DNA from: a virus
Reading direction: 5' to 3' (one strand)
IMG/VR virus record: IMGVR_UViG_3300032308_000916
Coordinates: 1 to 23,621 of that record
Length of the DNA stretch: 23,621 bases
Shown here: one piece after another, positions 1-21,468 of the stretch
How positions within the stretch are numbered: the first letter of the stretch is position 1
Layout of the letters: each line of letters starts with the position of its first letter
Notes under the pieces: generated by a model
Seen by the model: the letters and a program-made list of their open reading frames with translations, nothing else
The model's database searches: none
Told to the model about the DNA's origin: nothing
Made by a program: the position numbers and the translations under genes

Positions 1-5
1 ATGCG

Positions 6-740
6 ATGAAATACTATAGCGTTAGTCAATACCCTGGTAGCACAGGACAATATTACTATACTTACTTCTTTGCGAAGCATAACATTGATGCAACATACAC
101 TCCTTTAGGCTGCACCACTGACAACTTTGAAGCATTGATGAACAGCCTACTTGATGATGTTGACACTGCGGGTATAAGCATTAGTATGCCATATAAAAGA
201 AGCATACTAGAGTATGTTATTAAAAGAAATGGCAACCATGATCATCCTGTCATTCAATATGCGTTAGCCAATACGGTTGTCGTTAACCCAAAGTTGACAA
301 CATATAACTGTGACTTGCAGGGTGTTATTGAAGTCACTAAACAATTGCCGGTTGGTAGCAAAATCTCTATTTTAGGGAACGGCGCAATGGGGAAAATGTT
401 TAATGACTACCTCATTGAGAGTAAATACAACAACGTTATGATGTATAGTCGGAGCATGGGAAATTGGAATGAGCGGTATGATGAAGCCGATGCCATCATA
501 AATTGCACCAATGTTGGCACGGTTACTCGTGAATCACCTATTGAACGTATACCCAAACTCACTAAGACTGTCATCGACTTATCAGTAATTCCGGGAACCC
601 TAGAAACGTTATCGGTAGGGCAGTGTGACTATATCAGTGGATTAAATTTTTATCACCATCAATTCATGGAACAGTTTTACAGATACACTGGCGTGAGACT
701 TGATTATAATGACGTAGTCCAGGCAGGAAATGAACGATGA
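6..740 (+). CDS. Shikimate/quinate dehydrogenase-like (AroE-fold) oxidoreductase
   Basis: The 244-residue protein has the AroE layout. A segment GISISMPYKRS (56-66) matches the family's VTxPxK loop and keeps the catalytic lysine (K64). ALANTVV (86-92) matches the GAxNT element, and NCD (101-103) supplies the partner aspartate (D103). A Rossmann turn GNGAMG (124-129) follows, then INCTNVG and a C-terminal GLNFYHHQFMEQF that matches the family's GxxMLxxQxxxxF helix. The family reduces 3-dehydroshikimate or related cyclic polyols with NAD(P)H. The N-terminal substrate loop (VSQYPGST) lacks the usual SxSPxxHN signature, so the substrate may not be shikimate. It is slightly shorter than a typical AroE (about 270). 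The next gene starts inside its stop (ATGA), so it is part of a coupled cluster. An upstream gene could end at the TGA at 7-9. The fold is fairly sure; the reaction is inferred. Confidence 0.7.
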   Translation: MKYYSVSQYPGSTGQYYYTYFFAKHNIDATYTPLGCTTDNFEALMNSLLDDVDTAGISISMPYKRSILEYVIKRNGNHDHPVIQYALANTVVVNPKLTTYNCDLQGVIEVTKQLPVGSKISILGNGAMGKMFNDYLIESKYNNVMMYSRSMGNWNERYDEADAIINCTNVGTVTRESPIERIPKLTKTVIDLSVIPGTLETLSVGQCDYISGLNFYHHQFMEQFYRYTGVRLDYNDVVQAGNER

Positions 741-1213
741 TTACTAAGTTGATAATGGATGTAGACGGTGTATTAAGCACTGGTCACATGGTATATAGTG
801 CTGATGGAAAAACGTTCAAGTTGTTTGGTCCGCACGATAAAGATGGATTGAAAATTGTCAAGCGGTATCTCAGTGACATTACCTTTATTACTGCCGACAT
901 AACGGGTTGGGATATTACCTACAGACGAATTGTAACAGATTGGGGTTATGATCACAGTCAACTCGTGTTAGTCTCCGAAGAAGATCGTATGAGCTACTTT
1001 GAAAACAACTGCGACTTTGATACTACTGCGTTTATCGCAGACGGATACCATGACGCTCCCATACTCAAGCGAGTCAAATTGGGGATAGCCCCGGCTAGTG
1101 CTAGGATAGAAGCCAAAGATGCTGCGGACTACGTAACACCTAGTGACGCTGGCAGCGGTGCAGTGCTTGATGCTTGCTTACACATTGAAAGAGTCATCAA
1201 TGGACTTTCATAA
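737..1213 (+). CDS. KdsC-like HAD phosphatase (KDO-8-phosphate phosphatase family)
   Basis: This 158-residue protein has the length and layout of the capless KdsC subfamily of HAD phosphatases, which hydrolyse sugar-acid phosphates such as KDO-8-P and are also fused to CMP-sialate synthases. The nucleophile motif DVDGVLSTG (8-16) carries D8 and D10. Motif II is ITAD (51-54). The acidic loop ADGYHDAP supplies D102 and D106. The tail GIAPASA...AADYVTPSDAGSGAV matches the family's LAPxxAxxxVxxxADYVTxxxGGxGAV end. The motif III lysine usually seen as dK is R84 here, which is odd. The start overlaps the AroE-like gene by ATGA, and the next gene starts 14 bases before this stop. The context suggests dephosphorylation of an unusual sugar acid or cyclitol phosphate. 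Confidence 0.8.
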   Translation: MITKLIMDVDGVLSTGHMVYSADGKTFKLFGPHDKDGLKIVKRYLSDITFITADITGWDITYRRIVTDWGYDHSQLVLVSEEDRMSYFENNCDFDTTAFIADGYHDAPILKRVKLGIAPASARIEAKDAADYVTPSDAGSGAVLDACLHIERVINGLS

Positions 1214-2216
1214 ATTTAAATTAGGCGCTGGGCCGATGAGTGAATCAGTAGTTGCGTTATGTTTAGAATATAGCAGCTATCATAAGTTTCCTATCATGTT
1301 CATTGCCAGCAGAAATCAAGCTGATTACAACAGCGGGTATGCATTTACTACTAGTGATTTGGCAGACTTCATACGTAGCAACAAATACTATGATCCTGAT
1401 AGGGTGTTGATATGCCGTGATCACTGTGGTCCGTATTTTAGTGATGCTGATGCCGGATTGCCGTTAGATGATGCAGTAGCTTCCTGTTTAAAAACGATTG
1501 AAGCAGATTGCAATTCAAACTTTGATCTAATACACATAGATGTTAGCCGAATCGACACTGACCAACAATTTGACATCGCTGAAGTATTGTTTGATCATGC
1601 GAGAAAACTTAAGCCCGAGATGGCATTTGAGTTTGGAACTGAAGATAACACCGGTACTAACTTAAAAGATAGTATGCAAAAGCTACAACAGCAATTAGAA
1701 TTCATTGAAGCTTATAAACCATACGTAAAGTTTGTAGTATCACAAACTGGAAGCTTGACAAAACACACGCAAGTAGGTAAGTTTGATCCTGGCGACAACG
1801 TGCAGATAGCAGAGTTGATTCATAATAACGGGATGTTGTTCAAAGAACACAATGCTGATTACTTGTCCGCTGCCGAAGTTACTCTTAGAAAAACCACCGG
1901 AGTAGATGCTATTAACATTGCTCCGCAACTAGGGTCAGTGCAAAGCAGTGTTATGCTTGAGTATAAACATCACTGTCCGACACTTTATGAGACGTTTTAC
2001 AATGATGTGATTGAATCAGGCTACTGGAAAAAGTGGGTGACCCCAGACATCTCGGACAACGATACTAGATTTATAGCAAGCGCACACTATTGTTATGGCT
2101 ATACCAGCGGCAAGTTATTGTTAGATGAACTGTTGAACAACATAGATTTTACAGAAACATTAAAGATGCGTTTATATGATGCACTGGATCAATATAGAAT
2201 AGGATATGAATTATGA
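1200..2216 (+). CDS. GatZ/KbaZ-like class II tagatose-bisphosphate aldolase subunit homologue
   Basis: The protein has 338 residues when started at ATG 1200, which overlaps the phosphatase gene by 14 bases. An upstream in-frame ATG at 1143 would bury 71 bases in the previous gene and is less likely. Recognisable GatZ/KbaZ features are RDHCGPYF (family dHxGPn), FDLIHIDVSR (family xKIHLDxS), FEFGTEDN (family xGTEvP), VKFVVSQTG, FKEHNADYLS (family EAHSTDYQ) and INIAPQLGS (family lKVGPxLTF). In bacteria this TIM-barrel protein supports a class II aldolase in galactitol or N-acetylgalactosamine breakdown. Stand-alone homologues occur in surface-sugar clusters. In this phage it may build or cleave a ketose phosphate that feeds the neighbouring phosphatase and dehydrogenase. 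The family is reasonably sure; the role is inferred. Confidence 0.65.
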   Translation: MDFHKFKLGAGPMSESVVALCLEYSSYHKFPIMFIASRNQADYNSGYAFTTSDLADFIRSNKYYDPDRVLICRDHCGPYFSDADAGLPLDDAVASCLKTIEADCNSNFDLIHIDVSRIDTDQQFDIAEVLFDHARKLKPEMAFEFGTEDNTGTNLKDSMQKLQQQLEFIEAYKPYVKFVVSQTGSLTKHTQVGKFDPGDNVQIAELIHNNGMLFKEHNADYLSAAEVTLRKTTGVDAINIAPQLGSVQSSVMLEYKHHCPTLYETFYNDVIESGYWKKWVTPDISDNDTRFIASAHYCYGYTSGKLLLDELLNNIDFTETLKMRLYDALDQYRIGYEL

Positions 2217-2338
2217 AAATCTTCACTAGATTAAAACACTTTGTTGTTGAAGTTTTGTTTGGACGGGTAACAAGAGAAGTCAGATATCGTAAGAGACTAA
2301 AAGAAATGCGTAAGCGAGATCCTTTCATTTACAAGTGA
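2213..2338 (+). CDS. Small basic protein, unknown (41 aa)
   Basis: This short ORF begins with ATG overlapping the aldolase stop (ATGA) and ends six bases before the carbamoyltransferase start, so it fills the only gap in a tightly coupled cluster. The 41-residue product starts MKIFTRLKHFVVEVLFG and then becomes strongly basic (RVTREVRYRKRLKEMRKRD). The N-terminal half could form an amphipathic or membrane-surface helix. No family was recognised. Position and coupling argue that it is translated; there is no evidence for function. Confidence 0.5.
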   Translation: MKIFTRLKHFVVEVLFGRVTREVRYRKRLKEMRKRDPFIYK

Positions 2339-2344
2339 TATACG

Positions 2345-3838
2345 ATGAACTATGTAGGAATCAGTTGCGGCTTCCATGATGCTGCTTTAAGTGTCATTGA
2401 TGACAACGGCAATATCCTTTTTGCTGGGCACAGTGAACGATATAGTAAGAAGAAGCATGACAGTGAATTGTGTTCAGGTATAATAGAAGATGCTAGAAAC
2501 CGAATCAATGACGAATTTGAGGTTCACTATTATGAGCGCCCATATGTCAAAGCTATTCGGCAGTTGTTTGCTAAGCAAAAACTTGGCCCATTCAATGTCA
2601 ATAAGATCATTGGTACTCGGCACCTACGCATGTTAGAGAGTGCACCGAATACTCGTCGGGGCAAAGTAAAGACACACAATCATCATCTTTGTCACGCTGC
2701 TGCTGGGTTTCAAACGAGTCCATACGAAGATGCAACAGTTGTTGTTATTGATGCCATCGGTGAGCTAGACACTATCAGTATCTGGAATGCAACATACGAC
2801 AAAGAAGGTAAAGCAATATACAAGAAGATTTGGGAACGTAGTTATCCTGACTCTATTGGTCTTTTTTATTCTGCGATGACGGCACGAGTGGGCTTACGCC
2901 CACTAGACGAAGAATATATTCTTATGGGCATGGCTGCATATGGTAAGCCGGTCTATGATATCTCAATGCAAAACTTATTCAGCAACTTCGATGAGATTGT
3001 GTTAAAAGATAATCTGCACATTGGGGTTGATGAAAAGTTCCTGCAAGGTGCAGACGAAATGGATATTGCAGCATCGGCACAATCTGTTGTTGAACAACTT
3101 ATTACAACTGTAGTGAAGACAGCTAAGAAGTTAGGCAATAGCAATAACCTCGTTTACGGTGGCGGCGTAGCACTCAACTGTTCAGCTAATAGGTTGTTAG
3201 GTAAGTATTTTGAAAATATTTGGATTATGCCCAACCCAGGCGATGCTGGCAACAGTCTTGGTGCAGCAGCATTGGGGTATGGTAAAAAGCTCAAGTGGAC
3301 TGATGCATTTCTAGGATACAACATCGAAGGAGAGTATCCGGTTGACAACATCATAAAAGAATTGTATACTAACAAGATGGTAGGTGTAGCCAACGGAAGA
3401 GCGGAGTTTGGTCCTCGTGCATTGGGAAATCGGTCATTGCTAGCAGACCCTAGAGGACCCGAGATCAAGGATAAGGTAAATGAGATCAAGAGAAGACAAC
3501 AATTCAGACCTTTTGCGCCCGTCATTTTGGAAGAAATGGTTGACGATTACTTTGATATGCCTACCGGTTTCAGTGATAGTAGGTATATGCAAGTCATCGC
3601 TCCTTGTAAGCATCCTGACTTATTCCCTGCTATCGTTCACGCTGACGGGACTAGTCGTGTTCAGACTGTACCTAAAGATGCCTCCGGAATCAGAAAACTG
3701 CTAGAAAGGTGGTATGCTGAGACAGGTTGTCCTATGTTGTTAAACACTTCATTGAACATTCGCGGTGAGCCGATGGTTAATGATCGCAAAGACGCTGATC
3801 GTTTTACAAAACTATATGGAGTGGCTGTGTGTCAGTAA
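2345..3838 (+). CDS. NodU/CmcH/TobZ-type O-carbamoyltransferase
   Basis: The 497-residue protein contains both family domains. The N-terminal ASKHA/Kae1-like domain shows CGFHDAALSVIDDNG (8-22), the metal-binding HHLCH (113-117), VIDAIGE (134-140) with D136, SIGLFYSAMTARVG and the MGMAAYGKP turn. It also has VYGGGVALNCSANR and PNPGDAGNSLGAAALGYG. The C-terminal YrdC-like part has EFGPRALGNRSLLADPR, RPFAPVILEE and LLNTSLNIRGEPMV. Family members form carbamoyl-adenylate from carbamoyl phosphate and ATP and move the carbamoyl group to a hydroxyl on a sugar, antibiotic or modified base. It is somewhat shorter than usual (550-600). Related genes are common in marine T4-like phages, and some phage members act on 5-hydroxymethylcytosine in DNA. 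Here the sugar-enzyme neighbours favour a sugar or cyclitol acceptor. It overlaps the next gene by ten bases. Confidence 0.93.
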   Translation: MNYVGISCGFHDAALSVIDDNGNILFAGHSERYSKKKHDSELCSGIIEDARNRINDEFEVHYYERPYVKAIRQLFAKQKLGPFNVNKIIGTRHLRMLESAPNTRRGKVKTHNHHLCHAAAGFQTSPYEDATVVVIDAIGELDTISIWNATYDKEGKAIYKKIWERSYPDSIGLFYSAMTARVGLRPLDEEYILMGMAAYGKPVYDISMQNLFSNFDEIVLKDNLHIGVDEKFLQGADEMDIAASAQSVVEQLITTVVKTAKKLGNSNNLVYGGGVALNCSANRLLGKYFENIWIMPNPGDAGNSLGAAALGYGKKLKWTDAFLGYNIEGEYPVDNIIKELYTNKMVGVANGRAEFGPRALGNRSLLADPRGPEIKDKVNEIKRRQQFRPFAPVILEEMVDDYFDMPTGFSDSRYMQVIAPCKHPDLFPAIVHADGTSRVQTVPKDASGIRKLLERWYAETGCPMLLNTSLNIRGEPMVNDRKDADRFTKLYGVAVCQ

Positions 3839-4602: not shown

Positions 4603-7600
4603 ATGTTAAGGGATGTATTTTATTACGGAGCCAAACCAAACGTTCACCCTCGTGAAAGATTCGCAGAATCATTAGACGATGCTAGGCAAAAGTGTACGAC
4701 ACACAGCTTTTGGATCATCAATGAATTCTGCGACTATCGAGGGTTTGATTGGGACTTCGATTTTGAATTCTTACCCGACGAAGATGTCTGGGCAGAAGAC
4801 CACAACAATGTATGGCCTAGTCAACATCAGAAAGATAGCGGGACATGGCTGTGTCCTAAAGAACACAGTGACATAATCATCTATCGCTGTGATGTCGATT
4901 TTGTCACACGCAGAAATGTCAATAACGACAACTGGGTTGAACTTGATCTGATCGATCACTCCAAGTTCGATTTCTCATGGCATCCCGATCCTACTGACCC
5001 GCCCTATATCTACAAGTGGGGATGTAAGTACTTTCCTGCACAGCTTAAGCACGTACTAGAATATAGAGTGCCTGGCGCAACTACTGAGAAGTATATGTCT
5101 TCGATAGTTGAATTGTTGCCTGCTGTTGGCTGGGTAGAACATCAAGAGGTTGACAAGAACAAGTTTGATATGTCATGGCGACCTGACCCAAGAGAACCTC
5201 CCTTCATCTATGTTTGGGGGAACAAGTGGATTGATGCTAAAGTTGAACCAACACTTTCCTACCACGCACCCGGGGCTACTGATAAAAAGTACATGAGCAA
5301 TGACGTTCCCGTTCTTCCTGAATGGGACAGATGGGTTGAAGTACAAAACGTAGATAAAAACAATTTTGACTTCTCCTGGAGACCCGACCCAAGAGAACCG
5401 GCCTACATTTATACATGGGGCAACAAATGGGTTGATGCGGTAGTCTGTCCTACCCTGGAATATCATTGCGATGGCGCAACAGACAGAAAGTATATGAGCA
5501 ACGACGTTCCCGTTCTTCCTGAATGGGACAGGTGGGTTGAACATCAAGAAGTTGATAAGACCAACTTCGACTTTACTTGGCGCCCCGCCCCAAATGAACC
5601 GGCATACGTATACACCTGGGGCAATAAGTGGATTGATGCTACCGTTAAACCCACGCTTGTATACCAAACTCCCGGGGCTACTGATAAAAAATACATGAGC
5701 AACGACGTTCCCGTTCTTCCTGAATGGGACAGGTGGGTTGAAGTACAAAATGTAGATAAGAACAATTTTGACTTCTCCTGGAGACCCGACCCAAGAGAAC
5801 CGGCATATGTATACACGTGGGGCAACAAGTGGGTTGATGCGGCAGTTTGTCCTACTTTAGAATACCATTGCGATGACGCAGCGGACAAAAAATACATGAG
5901 CAACGACGTTCCTGTTCTTCCTGAATGGGACAGGTGGGTTGAACATCAAGCGGTTGATAAGACCAACTTCGACTTTACTTGGCGACCCGCCCCAAATGAA
6001 CCGGCTTACGTTTATACATGGGGCAACAAATGGGTTGATGCCACAGTCGAACCAACACTTTCTTACCGCGCGCCTGGGGCTACTGATAAAAAATACATGA
6101 GCAATGACGTTCCTGTTCTTCCTGAATGGGACAGGTGGGTTGAACATCAAGCGGTTGATAAGACCAACTTCGACTTCACTTGGCGTCCTGACCCAAGAGA
6201 ACCGGCCTACATTTATACATGGGGCAACAAATGGGTTGATGCGGTGCAACGTCCTACCTTGGAGTACCATTGCGATGACGCAACGGACAAAAAATACATG
6301 AGCAATGACGTTCCCGTCCTTCCTGAATGGGATAGGTGGAAAGTTCTCAAGTCAATCGATCAATCAAGCTTCGACTTCACTTGGCGACCTGACCCCAAAG
6401 AACCTCCCTTCACTTACGTGTTCGGCAATGAGTTGTATGATGCAGTCAAGATGCCTACTGTTACGTATAACATGCCGGAAGGTTCGGTGATCAAGTATGT
6501 AGACTTCCAGAAGGCAAGGTTAGTTAGTGATGCTAGCAGTTATGAATATCTAGAAGATTCATACTTAGCTGATCTTTCGTGGGCTCCTGATCCTGACGCT
6601 CCTCCGTATATCTATGCATGGGGTAACCAATGGAACAAGCCGGAAGATAAGATTTCAATACAGTATGTTGTCCCGGGCGCTACCGAGTATGTATACATGA
6701 AAGAACGAGCAGTTCGTAAACCTTGCATGGACAATTGGTATCTTCCTGAAAACGTAGATACCACTGGGTTTGACTTTTCATGGGAACCGCACCCCAAAGC
6801 TCCTCCGTATATCTATCAGTTTGCGACTCAACTAGATGATGTCTGGGTTGATGATGGTCCTAGATACGTCGCGCCGGGCAACGATGGATTTGTAGTTAGA
6901 ATGGAAAACTCAGTTCTATCTACAAGTAAAATTGAATATCCTAGATATACGATAGAAACTACGCTAGACGAGTTAGTCAAGAAACATCCTACCGAACAGT
7001 TTTGGGCGCTTAATAAGAACATCAACTACGATGATTTTGACTTTAGCTGGAGACCTAATAAGGAAAGTCTATTCAATGTAACCGTGTTTGGTTCTCCTGA
7101 AAGTGAACGCACACACACTTACTTTGTCAATGCTAAGTTCTATCTGCAAGGACACACTGACTTAGACTTCGTTCAATCCGGAGTAGAATTGGATGACAAA
7201 TATCTAGCTAAAATCTTTGTCAAGCCAGACCTCTTTTTTGTTGACAGAGGCAACACTGAATCTGCCACCAGATTTGATACATTGAAAGAGAAGTTTGGTA
7301 CGAGGATTCAAAAGACTCGCTATCTTAATTCGTGGGTAGATACTATCAATCGTTGCACCAATCGTGCAACTACTGAAATGATTTGGATTCTCAACAGTGA
7401 ACTAGACTATGATGACTTTGACTTTGAATATTACCCTAACCCTTGGCAAATGAAAATGGTGCAGGTGTTTGGGACTCAGTGGTCACACTGGGGTACTACA
7501 TTCATGGTCAACTGCGAGACGTTCAAAGAAGATACGAAATACATCAACATCATTGAACACTTATCAAATTTGAACTTCGTTAAGACTACCAAAGCAAAAG

Positions 7601-8964
7601 CCACTGCCTGCGTTCATGATGTTGTTATGATTGATCACGGAAACAGCGAACTGCGACAGGTCAGTGATCGAGTGGAACGGCAAACTGCAAGAAAGTTATT
7701 AGCTACGATACCGTATGATAAAAGCTACTTGAACACACTCAAGAACTTTATCAAGAAGTTGCCGGATAAGAAAGAACACTATCTTTGGATTTGCTCAAGC
7801 GTCTGTGACTACTCGCAGTTTGACTTTGCATATGTCTGTGATCCATTCTCCAGAGATAATCTTCATGTGTTCCCGAGCGACACCCAGAAGTTTGGAGATA
7901 CTTTCTTCATAGATGTGAATAAGACTAAAGAGATTATCGATGAACTAGAGGAGTTGGAAGAATATCATAAGATCAACTTCAATGGTTCGACACGGTCCTC
8001 TCGTTTATCGGCTCCTCTTATTTTTTCCAGTGATGACATGCATGTGAATTCTCTAGATAAAATAACAGGTTTCCCGTACGCTACGATCATCGCAGATGAC
8101 AATATCTTTATGGACGCGCCACCTGATGAACCCATGAATCTATGGTCTCCTGAGACGAAGAACATTATCATAACAAGTACCGGTGCAACACGAATCATCG
8201 TGCCAGCAGAAGCCAAAGACATTGTTAAGAAAGAACTATATGACTATCCGTACGTCAAGCGAATGCTCAAACTTACAAAAAGCGAACCGCTTGACATCGT
8301 GTTCGTGAGCAACGGGGAAACCATAGCTGAGCAAAACTATGAACACTTGTTGAAATTTACTGACGGACTAGCTAACAAAATTCACCGGGTCGACGGCATC
8401 AACGGCAGAACAGAAGCATTACACGCTGCTGCTAGAAGCAGTAAGACACCCTGGTTCTTCTGCATCCCTGCAAAGTTATTTGTCAATAAGAAGTTTGACT
8501 GGAGTTATCAAGCCGACAGGATGCAGCAGCCCAAACATTATATCTTCAATGCATTGAACCCTGTCAATGACTTATGTTATGGACACCAATCAATGGTGCT
8601 GTACAACAAGAATCTGGTCCTTGGCAACGAGGGAGTTGGCTTAGACTTCACGCTAGACAGCCTGCATATGTCTGTTGACCTTATTTCGGGTACGGTGTTG
8701 GGCGACACAGACGAATATAGCACATGGAGAACTGCCTTCAGAGAAGCAGTGAAACTAAAATGCTATTCAGAAACTGGCGACGCGGCGGCTATCACACGGC
8801 TTGACGTATGGACTAGCGTTGGCAAAGGTAACTATGGGGAATGGTCAATCAAGGGTGCATTAGACGGCATTGAATTCTATGACGAAGCCGGCGGCGACCT
8901 AGCTGTACTGCGACAAAGTTACTATTGGGATTGGTTAAAAGCTAGATACGAAAGTAAGTACTAA
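4603..8964 (+). CDS. Giant modular repeat protein with glycosyltransferase-like C-terminal region
   Basis: The 1453-residue protein is the largest in the window. After an N-terminal unit (HSFWIINEFCDYRGFDW), about ten modules of 66-67 residues run from residue 111 to roughly 775. Each module has a core F-D-[FM]-[ST]-W-x-P-x-P followed by Y-x-Y/W-G-N-x-W and a PGATDKKYM-like end. Six units (177-578) are nearly identical. Three more distant variants (FWALNKNINYDDFDFSW, IWILNSELDYDDFDFEY, LWICSSVCDYSQFDF) lie around 805-1100. The last 220 residues (from about 1227: DIVFVSNGE, then GRTEALHAAARSSKTPWFF) resemble a GT-A-type glycosyltransferase start, but no clear DxD was identified. No signal peptide or membrane helix was seen. 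Its place beside sugar and carbamoyl genes suggests glycan binding or transfer. That role is inference. Confidence 0.6.
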   Translation: MLRDVFYYGAKPNVHPRERFAESLDDARQKCTTHSFWIINEFCDYRGFDWDFDFEFLPDEDVWAEDHNNVWPSQHQKDSGTWLCPKEHSDIIIYRCDVDFVTRRNVNNDNWVELDLIDHSKFDFSWHPDPTDPPYIYKWGCKYFPAQLKHVLEYRVPGATTEKYMSSIVELLPAVGWVEHQEVDKNKFDMSWRPDPREPPFIYVWGNKWIDAKVEPTLSYHAPGATDKKYMSNDVPVLPEWDRWVEVQNVDKNNFDFSWRPDPREPAYIYTWGNKWVDAVVCPTLEYHCDGATDRKYMSNDVPVLPEWDRWVEHQEVDKTNFDFTWRPAPNEPAYVYTWGNKWIDATVKPTLVYQTPGATDKKYMSNDVPVLPEWDRWVEVQNVDKNNFDFSWRPDPREPAYVYTWGNKWVDAAVCPTLEYHCDDAADKKYMSNDVPVLPEWDRWVEHQAVDKTNFDFTWRPAPNEPAYVYTWGNKWVDATVEPTLSYRAPGATDKKYMSNDVPVLPEWDRWVEHQAVDKTNFDFTWRPDPREPAYIYTWGNKWVDAVQRPTLEYHCDDATDKKYMSNDVPVLPEWDRWKVLKSIDQSSFDFTWRPDPKEPPFTYVFGNELYDAVKMPTVTYNMPEGSVIKYVDFQKARLVSDASSYEYLEDSYLADLSWAPDPDAPPYIYAWGNQWNKPEDKISIQYVVPGATEYVYMKERAVRKPCMDNWYLPENVDTTGFDFSWEPHPKAPPYIYQFATQLDDVWVDDGPRYVAPGNDGFVVRMENSVLSTSKIEYPRYTIETTLDELVKKHPTEQFWALNKNINYDDFDFSWRPNKESLFNVTVFGSPESERTHTYFVNAKFYLQGHTDLDFVQSGVELDDKYLAKIFVKPDLFFVDRGNTESATRFDTLKEKFGTRIQKTRYLNSWVDTINRCTNRATTEMIWILNSELDYDDFDFEYYPNPWQMKMVQVFGTQWSHWGTTFMVNCETFKEDTKYINIIEHLSNLNFVKTTKAKATACVHDVVMIDHGNSELRQVSDRVERQTARKLLATIPYDKSYLNTLKNFIKKLPDKKEHYLWICSSVCDYSQFDFAYVCDPFSRDNLHVFPSDTQKFGDTFFIDVNKTKEIIDELEELEEYHKINFNGSTRSSRLSAPLIFSSDDMHVNSLDKITGFPYATIIADDNIFMDAPPDEPMNLWSPETKNIIITSTGATRIIVPAEAKDIVKKELYDYPYVKRMLKLTKSEPLDIVFVSNGETIAEQNYEHLLKFTDGLANKIHRVDGINGRTEALHAAARSSKTPWFFCIPAKLFVNKKFDWSYQADRMQQPKHYIFNALNPVNDLCYGHQSMVLYNKNLVLGNEGVGLDFTLDSLHMSVDLISGTVLGDTDEYSTWRTAFREAVKLKCYSETGDAAAITRLDVWTSVGKGNYGEWSIKGALDGIEFYDEAGGDLAVLRQSYYWDWLKARYESKY
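4933..6735 (+). repeat. Tandem coding array, 201-bp period (about nine units)
   Basis: Units begin at 4933, 5131, 5332, 5533, 5734, 5935, 6136, 6337 and 6538. Those from 5131 to 6336 have an exact 201-base period and very high nucleotide identity; the outer ones are diverged. A further diverged unit starts at 6736. Units at 5332+5533 resemble 5734+5935 as pairs, pointing to a 402-base higher-order duplication. Several long antisense frames over this region are by-products of the repeat. Confidence 0.92.
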
Positions 8965-9701: not shown

Positions 9702-10070
9702 ATGAAGAAGTTTATCGCAGCAGTAGCTGCATTATCACTAGTTGCTACCCCTGCTTTTGCAGACCATCGCGGCGACCGTAGGCAGCATGAACGCCATGAT
9801 CGTAGCGGTGCAAGCACAAGCGAAGTGGTCGCTATTGGTGTTCTTGGAATGGTGATAGGGGGAATTATCGGCAGTCGTAGCAACGAAGAACGTTATCCTT
9901 CTCGAACAGTAGTGGTAACTCCACAACAGTATGTTTACGAAAACCGCTACTATAATCCTCCCCGAGTAGTAACTCGACCTCAGCCACGACAAGTGTGCCA
10001 GGACGTAGTTCAATATGATTATTACGGCAATCCTTATGTGGCTGGTCGTAACTGCTGGTATCAGTATTAA
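9702..10070 (+). CDS. Secreted or envelope glycine-zipper protein (122 aa)
   Basis: A classical signal peptide is visible: MKKF, a hydrophobic core to residue 17 and an AFA cleavage site after residue 20. The mature protein starts with a charged stretch DHRGDRRQHERHDR, then one hydrophobic glycine-rich segment VVAIGVLGMVIGGIIG (about 42-57) of the glycine-zipper type, then a tyrosine/proline-rich tail. Two cysteines in the tail (VCQDVV and NCWYQY) could form a disulfide in the periplasm. AAGGAG (9688-9693) eight bases before ATG fixes the start. The tail resembles bacterial RcnB/17-kDa-antigen-like envelope proteins only in general style. Export is well supported; function is unknown. Confidence 0.75.
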   Translation: MKKFIAAVAALSLVATPAFADHRGDRRQHERHDRSGASTSEVVAIGVLGMVIGGIIGSRSNEERYPSRTVVVTPQQYVYENRYYNPPRVVTRPQPRQVCQDVVQYDYYGNPYVAGRNCWYQY

Positions 10071-11927: not shown

Positions 11928-13883
11928 ATGGACATTTCTGAATTAAAAGACTTTAAGCTTTCAGATGCTGTTGTGTTTCACGACGACCTTAATCCTAACC
12001 TTTGGAACGGTACGCGCCTTGATCCTAAGGTTAGAAAGCAGTTGATGCTGATAGCAGAAGACTTCATCACTACTTTAGGGATTAGCGACCTTCACGTTAA
12101 AGACATCACGATCTCCGGATCTAATGCAGCATATTCATACACCCCGCATAGTGACTTAGACTTACATATCCTAGTTGATATGGATAAGTTACCGAACAAC
12201 GAGGTGTATCGTGAGTTGTTCACTGCAAAGAAAACCCTGTACAATGATCAGCACAATGTCTCTATCCGCAATGTTCCGGTAGAAGTTTACGTACAAGACA
12301 CCAATGAACCCGTTAACTCATTGGGTGAATATAGTGTTGTGAACGATAAATGGATAAGGATTCCTAAAAAACAACGTGCTAACTTCGACCAGGCTGCTAC
12401 CAAAGCCAAATATGAAAACCTAGCTGAACTCGTGGACTTAGCTATAAAGTCCGCTGACATAGACCGCGTTAAAAAACTGATTGACATGATCAGGCGTTAT
12501 CGCAAAGCAGGTCTTTCAAAGGGCGGAGAGTTCTCCCCTGAAAATCTAGCATATAAGGCAGTTAGAAGCCAGGGCGCTATCGACGCACTATACGACCTAC
12601 GCGACACGCTGCACGGCGCCGAGTTAAGCATCGAAGAAGCATCCTCTCGTGAAGATGCGATCATCAAGATCAACAAGCTAAAGAACACTTCTGGCAGAAC
12701 CGAGAACGAGATTGCGACGATTAATGCTATCATTGAAAGGCTGATGAAGCAGTATAACATCAAACCAAAAGAAATAGGAATGTCGCAGGGTATTTCGTCA
12801 AACAACTATCCAAGTCGCGAACCTGTTGATCCGCTTAAAGCAAGGATGGCAAAAGCAGAGTATGAGAAGCAGCAAGCAGCCGCTGAATTAAAGAGAGAAT
12901 GGGAACGCTTCAAGAGCGGATTCTTCAAAAAGAACACAAAACTTGATGAAGCATACACTACTAAACAGCAGGTTATCGATCACTTTGTTCGTATGGCACG
13001 AAAAAGAGGTGAAAACATCGACCTAGCGATGAGAAAAGGTGCGGGAGCTTGGGAACGCGGTTGGAGAGGCCCAGAACCCAAAAAACCGAAAGAACCCAAA
13101 AAACCTAAAGAGGTCAAGCCCTACGACCCTGAACGCTATAAGCCTCGCTTGCCTTACAAAGACGATGATGATGAAACTAACGAAGATTACGACCCGGTAA
13201 ACGAAACCGAAGATAGAAAAGCAGCAGTGCTTAAGATTCAGAAACACTTGAATAAGAAGTACGGTGCTAACCTTGACCTTGATGGTAAGCTAGGCCCACT
13301 CACCCTCAAATCAATCAACAAGTTTATGCCCAGAGCAAAGACTGGATTAGCAGACGAACCTAACAAGACAACAGCCGTACAGGGTAAGAAACTTAAAGAA
13401 ACTGAAAGTAAGCCTACCACGACAATCAATTTTAGAACCTGGCAACACGGTGGCGTACCGAGACACTCGTTTGTAGTCGTGCGTGACGGGAAAAAGATAG
13501 CTTACGGTGAGATATCAAAAGACAATGAATGGGATGATGATCGCGGAGCATCAGTGCAAGATATTGTAGTTCACACTGATTATCGCCGTAAAGGCTTCGC
13601 TACTAAAATCTATAACGAGATAGAGCGCAAATTCAATTATAAACTACACCCGTCTGATGATGTTAAGCCAGATGGCCAAGAGTTTTGGAAAGCTAGAAGC
13701 AATCTAGACGAAGCCTCAGGATACATTCCATCAGCAAAAGAAAAGAACGATCCTCGCTTCAAGACTGCACTCACTGTAGATGTAAAGCCAGACGCAATCA
13801 AGAAGAACGCTAAGGCATTCGGCTTCAAGACTTCCAGAGCAGGCATCCCTCCCCAAGCACGAGCAGATGGAAAGATAAAATGA
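11928..13883 (+). CDS. Multidomain nucleotidyltransferase / PG-binding / GNAT protein, probably virion-packaged
   Basis: This is a 651-residue protein of joined modules. Residues 57-130 form a nucleotidyltransferase-fold domain with GSNA (64-67), SDLDLHIL (75-82) and a third acidic position at E119. A helical region with LSKGGEFSPENLAYK follows to about 230. After a charged helical stretch and a lysine/proline linker (KPKEPKKPKE), residues 430-468 look like a peptidoglycan-binding domain (AVLKIQKHLNKKYG...DGKLGPLTLKSINKFM). Residues 500-590 look like a GNAT acetyltransferase with the acetyl-CoA loop YRRKGFATK (552-560). A C-terminal module SGYIPSAKEKNDPRF ends the protein. Boundaries carry IEEA (235-238), LDEA (339-342) and LDEA (593-596), like T4 gp21 cleavage sites ([LI]-x-E then A/G/S). 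The late-type promoter also fits a packaged polyprotein. Packaging is inference. Confidence 0.7.
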   Translation: MDISELKDFKLSDAVVFHDDLNPNLWNGTRLDPKVRKQLMLIAEDFITTLGISDLHVKDITISGSNAAYSYTPHSDLDLHILVDMDKLPNNEVYRELFTAKKTLYNDQHNVSIRNVPVEVYVQDTNEPVNSLGEYSVVNDKWIRIPKKQRANFDQAATKAKYENLAELVDLAIKSADIDRVKKLIDMIRRYRKAGLSKGGEFSPENLAYKAVRSQGAIDALYDLRDTLHGAELSIEEASSREDAIIKINKLKNTSGRTENEIATINAIIERLMKQYNIKPKEIGMSQGISSNNYPSREPVDPLKARMAKAEYEKQQAAAELKREWERFKSGFFKKNTKLDEAYTTKQQVIDHFVRMARKRGENIDLAMRKGAGAWERGWRGPEPKKPKEPKKPKEVKPYDPERYKPRLPYKDDDDETNEDYDPVNETEDRKAAVLKIQKHLNKKYGANLDLDGKLGPLTLKSINKFMPRAKTGLADEPNKTTAVQGKKLKETESKPTTTINFRTWQHGGVPRHSFVVVRDGKKIAYGEISKDNEWDDDRGASVQDIVVHTDYRRKGFATKIYNEIERKFNYKLHPSDDVKPDGQEFWKARSNLDEASGYIPSAKEKNDPRFKTALTVDVKPDAIKKNAKAFGFKTSRAGIPPQARADGKIK

Positions 13884-20099: not shown

Positions 20100-20557
20100 A
20101 GCTTATCATTGCAACCGACCCGAATGGTGGGATAGGATATCAGAACAGATTGCCTTGGACTAATATCCAGGGCGATTTGCCAAGATTCAAGCGTCTCACT
20201 GACGGACAGACAGTTATCATGGGGCGTAATACTTGGGATAGCTTACCTAAGAAACCACTGCCCGGAAGAATAAACATTGTCGTATCTTCTAGACCACTAG
20301 ACGAGGAACATCATAATGTGATTCGTGCTCCGGATATGAGTTTCAACCGACCGGATGATGTGGAGTTCTGGCTGATAGGCGGCGCTAAACTTATTGAAAG
20401 TTGCCGGGACTTGATCGATGAAGTTCACTTGACTAAGGTACATGACCATTACACTTGTGATACGTTTGTAGATTTGCTATATATTGAAGCTAACTTTGAT
20501 CAGACATACAGCGAGATGTTCCCTGATCACGAATATCAGATTTGGAAGAGAAAATGA
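20096..20557 (+). CDS. folA: Dihydrofolate reductase
   Basis: A start at 20045 is open in frame, but ATG 20096 begins the true DHFR N-terminus (MKLIIATDPNGGIGYQNRLP) and overlaps the previous stop, with AAAGGG just upstream. The 153-residue length is typical. Family features are the GIGxxNxLPW loop, catalytic D27 in GDLPRFKRLT, VIMGRNTWDSLPKKPLPGR for NADPH binding, and the LIGGAKL turn. The enzyme regenerates tetrahydrofolate, which ThyA, encoded next and overlapping by ATGA, oxidises during dTMP synthesis. Phages carry this pair to supply thymidine for replication, and DHFR can also be a virion component in T4. Confidence 0.95.
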   Translation: MKLIIATDPNGGIGYQNRLPWTNIQGDLPRFKRLTDGQTVIMGRNTWDSLPKKPLPGRINIVVSSRPLDEEHHNVIRAPDMSFNRPDDVEFWLIGGAKLIESCRDLIDEVHLTKVHDHYTCDTFVDLLYIEANFDQTYSEMFPDHEYQIWKRK

Positions 20558-21468
20558 AACAGTATCATGACTTACTGCAAGACATCTTAACTAACGGTGA
20601 AGAGAAAGATGATCGGACCGGCGTCGGTACTATCAGCATCTTTGCCCGTCAATTGCGATTTGACTTGACGAAAGGCTTCCCGGCTGTTACTACTAAGAAG
20701 CTAGCTTGGAAATCCGTCGTTAGTGAACTGTTGTGGTTTTTAGAAGGAACCGGTGATGAGAGAAGGCTTGCTGAAATTCTACACGGATCAAGAGACACAG
20801 AGTGTAGTACGATCTGGACAGGAAATGCTGAGGCAGATTACTGGCAACCTAAAGCAAAGTTTCCCGGAGATTTGGGAAGGGTGTATGGAGTTCAGTGGAG
20901 ACACTGGAGACAGGGCCCTAACGTCACAGCCGAAGATGTAGTCCATCAGGACGAATTTGGCGCATGGTTTACTACCCCAATTGAGATTATGAACGACATT
21001 GATCAGATTGCAAATCTGATTGAAGGACTCAAGACTGATCCAAACGGACGTAGACACATCCTTACTGCATGGAACGTCGGTGAATTAGATCAGATGGCCT
21101 TACCTCCGTGCCACGTTATGAGTCAATTTTACGTTAGTAATGGAAAGTTAAGCTGTCATATGTATCAGCGCAGCGTTGATGTGTTCTTGGGTCTGCCGTT
21201 CAACATCGCATCTTATGCTTTGCTTACCCACATGATTGCTCAGGTTTGTGATTTGCAAGTAGGTGAGTTAATTATCTCTACTGGTGATACGCATATCTAT
21301 AAGAATCATATTGATCAGGTTAAGGAGCAGTTGAGTAGAGAAGAATATCCATTACCTGCACTTTCACTAAATCCTGAGATAAAAGATATTGACAAATTCT
21401 CAATGGATGATATAATGCTAGTTGACTATAAGAGTCACACCGCAATCAAAGCAGAGATGGCAGTCTAA
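20554..21468 (+). CDS. thyA: Thymidylate synthase
   Basis: ATG 20554 has GGAAGAG four bases upstream and overlaps the DHFR stop; a TTG at 20542 in frame is not needed. The protein is 304 residues, longer than E. coli ThyA (264). The extra length is mainly an insertion around residues 90-145. The N-terminus DRTGVGTISIFARQLRFDL and the catalytic PPCH (C186) are conserved. QRSVDVFLGLPFNIASYALL keeps N217, the residue that selects dUMP. In dCMP hydroxymethylases this position is aspartate, so this enzyme should make dTMP and not hydroxymethyl-dCMP. It uses methylene-tetrahydrofolate recycled by the coupled DHFR. Confidence 0.97.
   Translation: MKQYHDLLQDILTNGEEKDDRTGVGTISIFARQLRFDLTKGFPAVTTKKLAWKSVVSELLWFLEGTGDERRLAEILHGSRDTECSTIWTGNAEADYWQPKAKFPGDLGRVYGVQWRHWRQGPNVTAEDVVHQDEFGAWFTTPIEIMNDIDQIANLIEGLKTDPNGRRHILTAWNVGELDQMALPPCHVMSQFYVSNGKLSCHMYQRSVDVFLGLPFNIASYALLTHMIAQVCDLQVGELIISTGDTHIYKNHIDQVKEQLSREEYPLPALSLNPEIKDIDKFSMDDIMLVDYKSHTAIKAEMAV

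Follow-up and report, generated by a model that had tools for sequence, protein, structure and literature searches.

A 201-bp repeat array inside a viral reading frame raises the question of what protein is built from such units, how their number changes and what the protein might do for the virus. The stretch analysed here (henceforth the window) is the 23,621-nt IMG/VR record IMGVR_UViG_3300032308_000916, positions 1-23,621; it comes from a large freshwater virus of bacteria, and the repeat gene with its units and modules and the window genes upstream of it lie on the plus strand. The array sits in an ORF (4603-8964) that runs from ATG to stop, intact and without a frameshift, and encodes a 1453-residue protein, henceforth the repeat protein. 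Scans of the whole window protein gave no usable match in Pfam or PHROG (in Pfam, none), scans of the same type with 51 C-terminal and 34 N-terminal family members returned weak or scattered matches only, a profile search of PDB sequences for relatives gave none, and a description of the protein was not found in the literature. An IMG/VR scan found 80 loci encoding relatives, and a profile scan of IMG/VR with the C-terminal part gave at least 597 matches. Eight large records (250-364 kb) carrying the repeat gene all encode a T4-type Gp23 capsid protein as well, about 65% identical to the Gp23 of jumbo phages such as PA5oct, and the repeat protein is assigned to T4-like jumbo phages. Among isolate phages (50,697 records), tblastn with the full protein, a two-unit consensus or two of the C-terminal modules defined below (M2 and M5) returned nothing credible, and a scan of GTDB genomes by two peptide patterns gave 26 pattern matches, none of which was confirmed. 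One relative (L007:7680-12029) seems to have an interruption close to the 3' end of the gene, leaving a 1308-residue frame and a separate 133-residue ORF, either through a frameshift or through a sequencing error.

TRF detected both a 201-bp period (score 1224) and a 402-bp period (score 1709) at 5215-6404. Unit alignment places six core units, each exactly 201 bp (67 residues), at 5131-6336. They alternate as two subtypes in the order A-B-A-B-A-B, with units 1 (5131-5331), 3 (5533-5733) and 5 (5935-6135) of subtype A and units 2 (5332-5532), 4 (5734-5934) and 6 (6136-6336) of subtype B, forming a 402-bp dimer. An earlier note on this DNA had claimed an exact 201-base period for six units, which the TRF result and the unit starts bear out within a single intact ORF; the near identity that it ascribed to these units does not hold, since the core units are 71-89% identical at the nucleotide level and their pairwise dS ranges from 0.65 up to saturation. 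The match that it reported between units 2+3 and units 4+5 is real (0.89 and 0.87) and is explained by the alternating pattern. The flanking units were rightly called diverged, being 23-56% identical to the rest: unit 0 (4933-5130; 198 bp, 66 residues), unit 7 (6337-6537), unit 8 (6538-6735; 198 bp, 66 residues, with an ADLSW variant of the FDFSW motif) and unit 9, the last (6736-6882, residues 711-760). The repeat is thus present throughout the 4933-6735 interval first assigned to it, and the array extends beyond, to about 6882. A unit HMM recovers ten units above 30 bits in the window protein (residues 110-760, E 6e-19 to 5e-29), with aromatic residues (F, W and Y) making up 16% of the units. 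Three minus-strand ORFs within the array (5173-5748, 5544-5903 and 5857-6270) were judged to be by-products of repeated codons.

Exchange between units was probed with a permutation test on the longest runs of sharing across 79 polymorphic sites. The test identifies unit 6 as a mosaic, with a start shared with unit 5 (unit positions 6-40, p 0.0002), a middle shared with unit 2 (positions 56-110, p<0.0002) and a short segment shared with unit 4 (positions 132-147 only, p 0.009); the sharing of an end with unit 4 noted earlier is supported at these last positions alone, and the strongest sharing is with units 2 and 5. Similarly, the proposed sharing of an end between units 5 and 1 is visible in block 108-150, where the two agree at 0.86 while units 3 and 5 agree at 0.69, but their longest run is not significant in the permutation test (p 0.08). 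The array units are under purifying selection, with dN/dS of 0.05-0.21 wherever dS is measurable. The dS between the window and its closest relative (locus L001, 92% nucleotide identity in the C-terminal part) is 0.37 in that part, lower than the dS of at least 0.65 between the window's own core units, so that most duplications in the window probably predate the split of the two.

Comparison with relatives revealed how the number of units changes. The number of units (>30 bits) in the array ranges from 1 to 33 among 58 complete, distinct relatives, whose proteins are 841-3084 residues long; a constant N-terminal module of about 110 residues and a constant C-terminal part of about 670 residues frame the array. 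L001 has five core units where the window has six, a difference of 67 residues; flanking units of the two match by position (93-95% nucleotide identity; 95% for unit 0 and 93% for unit 7), whereas cross-matches between core units lie at 83-89% and L001 has two core units that are 94% alike. Differences of 1 to 12 units separate other pairs whose C-terminal parts are more than 90% identical in amino acids, and a tree of 57 rows requires at least 42 parsimony changes of unit number. Near-identical contigs keep their number (L036/L040/L041/L047/L070, L018/L019/L051/L072 and L031-L033), so that the array is stable over short time scales and the copy-number variation predicted by the earlier note is found between lineages, not within the closest strains. 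Neither a constant number nor equal divergence of all units was seen among the relatives. The array behaves as a concertedly evolving tandem array: its core changes in number and contains mosaics, while its edge units stay orthologous. Together with the mosaics, the six versus five core units, the range of 1-33 and the at least 42 changes strongly support unequal homologous recombination between 201-bp units, with conversion, as the DNA mechanism, as had been proposed. Recombination and conversion would yield the alternating subtypes, the mosaic units and the concerted evolution in mid-array, under purifying selection on the protein.

A major question is what fold the units and their flanks adopt. 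An AlphaFold2 model of the C-terminal 674 residues (51 relatives in the alignment) has a mean pLDDT of 87, and the top PDB chains found with Foldseek are tandem GT-A proteins, LH3 and the chondroitin polymerase K4CP, with heparosan synthase also among the top matches; WrtF and SpsA are further GT-A fold matches. In the Foldseek viral library the best matches are two uncharacterised phage proteins, followed by viral glycosyltransferases. The C-terminal part is thus predicted with high confidence to consist of tandem GT-A (glycosyltransferase-type) modules: a reduced GT-A-like module M1 (6940-7227, residues 780-875), a full GT-A-like module M2 (7228-7617, residues 876-1005), a GT-A-like module M3 (7618-7974, residues 1006-1124), a linker domain M4 (7975-8280, residues 1125-1226) with no detected relation to the modules (hhalign <1%), a full GT-A module M5 (8281-8712, residues 1227-1370) and, in the structure model, a helical tail (8713-8961, residues 1371-1453). 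VIA-align superposes M5 on B4GALNT1 (Z 11.3, rmsd 3.0, 143 residues) and M2 on IspDF and MobA (Z about 9.4-10.1, model residues 90-226). The modules are also related to one another by hhalign (M1-M2 98.4%; M2-M3 98.1%, E 1e-13). GT2 models in Pfam match one or two of the 51 relatives weakly (E 0.006-0.04), and the window protein itself matches none of the Pfam GT families.

The 67-residue unit itself aligns by hhalign with M1 (97.8%, E 7e-13), M2 (96.3%) and M5 (86.3%), and with the control M4 at 0.4%; the alignment runs from the W of the DxD strand via FDF.W.P and FGTQW to the next strand. Profile comparison thus shows the unit to be homologous to what follows the DxD strand in a GT-A-like module, namely its second half. 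The N-terminal module (4603-4926, residues 1-108, FWIINEFCDY..FDWDFDF) is likewise of a reduced GT-A-like type (hhalign to M1 91.9%, M3 88%, M2 83%) and has a weak fold match to the HddC nucleotidyltransferase (Z 4.1), in a model whose confidence is low in places. The repeat-region model has confident all-beta units (pLDDT about 95); it gave no Foldseek match below E 0.001, and its VIA matches are confined to the N-terminal module, so it is sequence profiles that carry the GT-A descent of the units. DHFR, which surfaced in the fold search of this model at E about 1, was dismissed as chance. By computation, then, the N-terminal module, M1-M3 and M5 frame the array, and the protein is almost wholly made of GT-A-type modules.

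The canonical DxD motif is absent from the commonest strings at the DxD place in the N-terminal module, M1, M2, M3 and M5 in the alignment of 51 relatives. The residues found there are NE in the N-terminal module, LN, IN or LR in M1, NSE in M2, mostly SS in M3, and AK or GK (mostly as FAK) in M5. Around the would-be active site, conservation is strong in both M2 (NSELDY, FGTQWSHWG) and M5. A homologue of M5 (hmmsearch E about 1e-12, hhalign 96.9%) is encoded upstream of the repeat gene as a separate single-domain GT-A protein (L017:20-967 and L077:1537-2493). This protein retains VDGDN, with an intact DGD, which makes it a plausible active enzyme beside the DxD-less repeat protein. It was not found in isolate phages. 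At the edge of locus L001, a fragment resembling it (L001:41-652) also lies upstream of the repeat gene.

We then asked in which company the repeat gene is found. Upstream of it in the window lies a sugar cassette, assigned through Pfam, comprising a shikimate-dehydrogenase-like gene (6-740), a HAD phosphatase gene (737-1213; the name KdsC-like is by inference) and a GatZ/KbaZ-like aldolase gene (about 1143-2216), followed by a NodU/TobZ-type O-carbamoyltransferase gene (2345-3838; PF16861/PF02543, phrog_1601). The carbamoyltransferase gene is present in 49 of the 56 loci with enough upstream sequence; L001 is among the seven that do not have it. In 44 of the 51 relatives having it, the repeat gene comes next, after a gap of 0-34 nt, and in the window the two are separated by 764 nt with two small ORFs. 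Other neighbours encode UDP-glucose dehydrogenase, DegT aminotransferase, epimerases, MobA-like NTP transferases, dehydroquinate-synthase-like and kinase-like proteins, a 2OG-oxygenase and many radical SAM proteins. Similarity between the window and L001 begins at about window position 3830, the end of the carbamoyltransferase gene, and downstream sequences are about 88-95% identical, whereas the upstream gene sets (window 1-3838 versus L001 2148-7145) are wholly different; that of L001 appears, by eye, to contain DHQ-synthase-like, kinase, nucleotidylyltransferase and SDR genes. Thus, the sugar cassette is exchanged while the repeat gene stays.

Several further features of these loci were recorded. 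In several loci (among them L001:4326-5465, minus strand, and L007:4553-5524), the neighbours include a dehydroquinate-synthase-like gene and an amidinotransferase lookalike (by eye, with no Pfam match), alongside genes for aminotransferases and O-carbamoyltransferases; such a set recalls the chemistry of aminocyclitols (pseudo-sugars), here in phages. Downstream of the repeat gene, a small protein with an apparent signal peptide and no Pfam family (window 9702-10070) is kept in 22 loci, a Gram-negative porin (L075:14697-15578) represents a cluster found in 12 loci, and a phosphate transporter subunit is encoded in some other loci. A short 18/9-bp coding repeat (EPKKPK) lies at 13073-13111, within a nucleotidyltransferase-like ORF (11928-13883).

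The biochemical function that we infer for the repeat protein, with a probability of about 0.45, lies in a phage locus for glycan modification, where it would serve as a GT-A repeat scaffold of a non-catalytic or non-canonical kind or as a protein that binds glycans. The protein would work inside the infected cell, as no signal peptide was seen and its gene lies within the sugar cassette. The half-modules, rich in aromatic residues, would hold either a long glycan or an unusual sugar in activated and often carbamoylated form, and would thereby serve the swappable upstream enzymes, the length of the array setting the reach or the number of binding sites (valency). The protein may bind glycans. 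A bolder proposal, which we regard as doubtful, is that the protein represents a new class of length-variable pseudo-glycosyltransferases, in which half of a catalytically dead GT-A domain would have become an autonomous repeat, amplified as a scaffold or molecular ruler for the swappable cassettes of jumbo phages.

An alternative that we consider unlikely is an active but unusual glycosyltransferase, in which M2 and/or M5 would transfer sugar without a canonical DxD, through NSE or another motif, and the array would be a device for processivity or chain length. The conservation of M2 and M5, the two-GT-A-domain polymerases K4CP and heparosan synthase among the top Foldseek matches and the neighbouring genes making nucleotide sugars speak for such an enzyme, but the DxD is lost from the commonest strings of the modules in the 51 aligned relatives, A/G-K is fixed in M5, and the single-domain homologue with its intact DGD, present in several loci, is the better enzyme candidate.

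Improbable, too, is a role on the virion surface, as an adhesin or fibre that would tune its length or its avidity for host glycans through the number of repeats; the earlier note had already drawn a comparison with adhesins. The array does resemble surface repeat proteins in its variable copy number, its concerted evolution and the aromatic residues of its units, and GT-A folds can bind glycans. However, no tail or structural family is among the PHROG matches listed (the top 25) for 112 neighbour representatives, the neighbours being metabolic sugar enzymes; in the records checked, tens of kb separate the repeat gene from that of the major capsid protein; and GT-A modules make up the protein, so the comparison with adhesins is not supported. 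The repeat-region model, which matches no fold significantly, has no match to fibre proteins either.

We consider it very unlikely that the locus belongs to a phage DNA hypermodification pathway with modified DNA as the substrate of the GT-A protein, even though a carbamoyltransferase gene usually adjoins the repeat gene and a thymidylate synthase is encoded at 20542-21468. The latter carries PFNIASYA, with an Asn that typifies thymidylate synthases and not dCMP hydroxymethylases. Phage carbamoyltransferases can carbamoylate 5-hydroxymethylcytosine, and their genes are reported to adjoin thymidylate-synthase domains in modified contigs and glycosyltransferase or other unrelated genes in unmodified ones (PMC8670742). 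Here the neighbours are nucleotide-sugar genes, resembling the unmodified case, and the thymidylate synthase gene lies at a distance of 16 kb. Least credible of all is that short-read metagenome assembly created most of the copy-number differences: every relative is a metagenomic contig and arrays of identical units tend to break or collapse during assembly, but most units are clearly distinct in sequence, the array differs in its middle while its flanking units remain orthologous, and one phage present in several contigs shows the same unit number, which speaks against an artefact.

We find a large, previously unnamed jumbo-phage protein family in which an enzyme fold has apparently been halved and reused as an expandable repeat. 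With 1-33 copies in a constant frame beside swapping sugar cassettes, a link between repeat length and glycan type is directly testable. Each ingredient is already known, be it the GT-A fold, the tandem GT-A protein or the variable repeat array; a half-domain amplified 1-33 times with loss of the catalytic motif is a combination not found in the libraries or literature searched. Glycosyltransferases are reported in another freshwater jumbo lineage, moraphage, with no link to the repeat-protein family shown (PMC12619734). The usual upstream neighbour belongs to the NodU/TobZ-like carbamoyltransferase family (phrog_1601) that includes the 5hmC carbamoyltransferase (PMC8670742), but its context here is one of nucleotide-sugar genes, with no sign of a DNA substrate. 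Two proteins of uncultured Caudovirales phages, A0A6J5LK21 and A0A6J5L5L5, annotated as uncharacterised, share the C-terminal fold (Foldseek E 3e-72 and 3e-67, 30-34% identity) and are family members; at 804 and 1076 residues, they probably have shorter arrays. The streptococcal alpha C and M proteins resemble the repeat protein in their long in-frame units, concerted evolution and lineage-variable copy number, whereas the unit here is apparently derived from an enzyme fold, the gene lies in a phage sugar cassette and no secretion signal is seen. Closest in architecture are tandem GT-A proteins such as K4CP, heparosan synthase 2, LH3, which carries an additional non-catalytic GT-A-like domain, and viral multi-domain glycosyltransferases, which likewise have several GT-A domains in one chain; these have a canonical catalytic DxD and few full domains, whereas the repeat protein has no DxD in its modules and carries a half-module 1-33 times.
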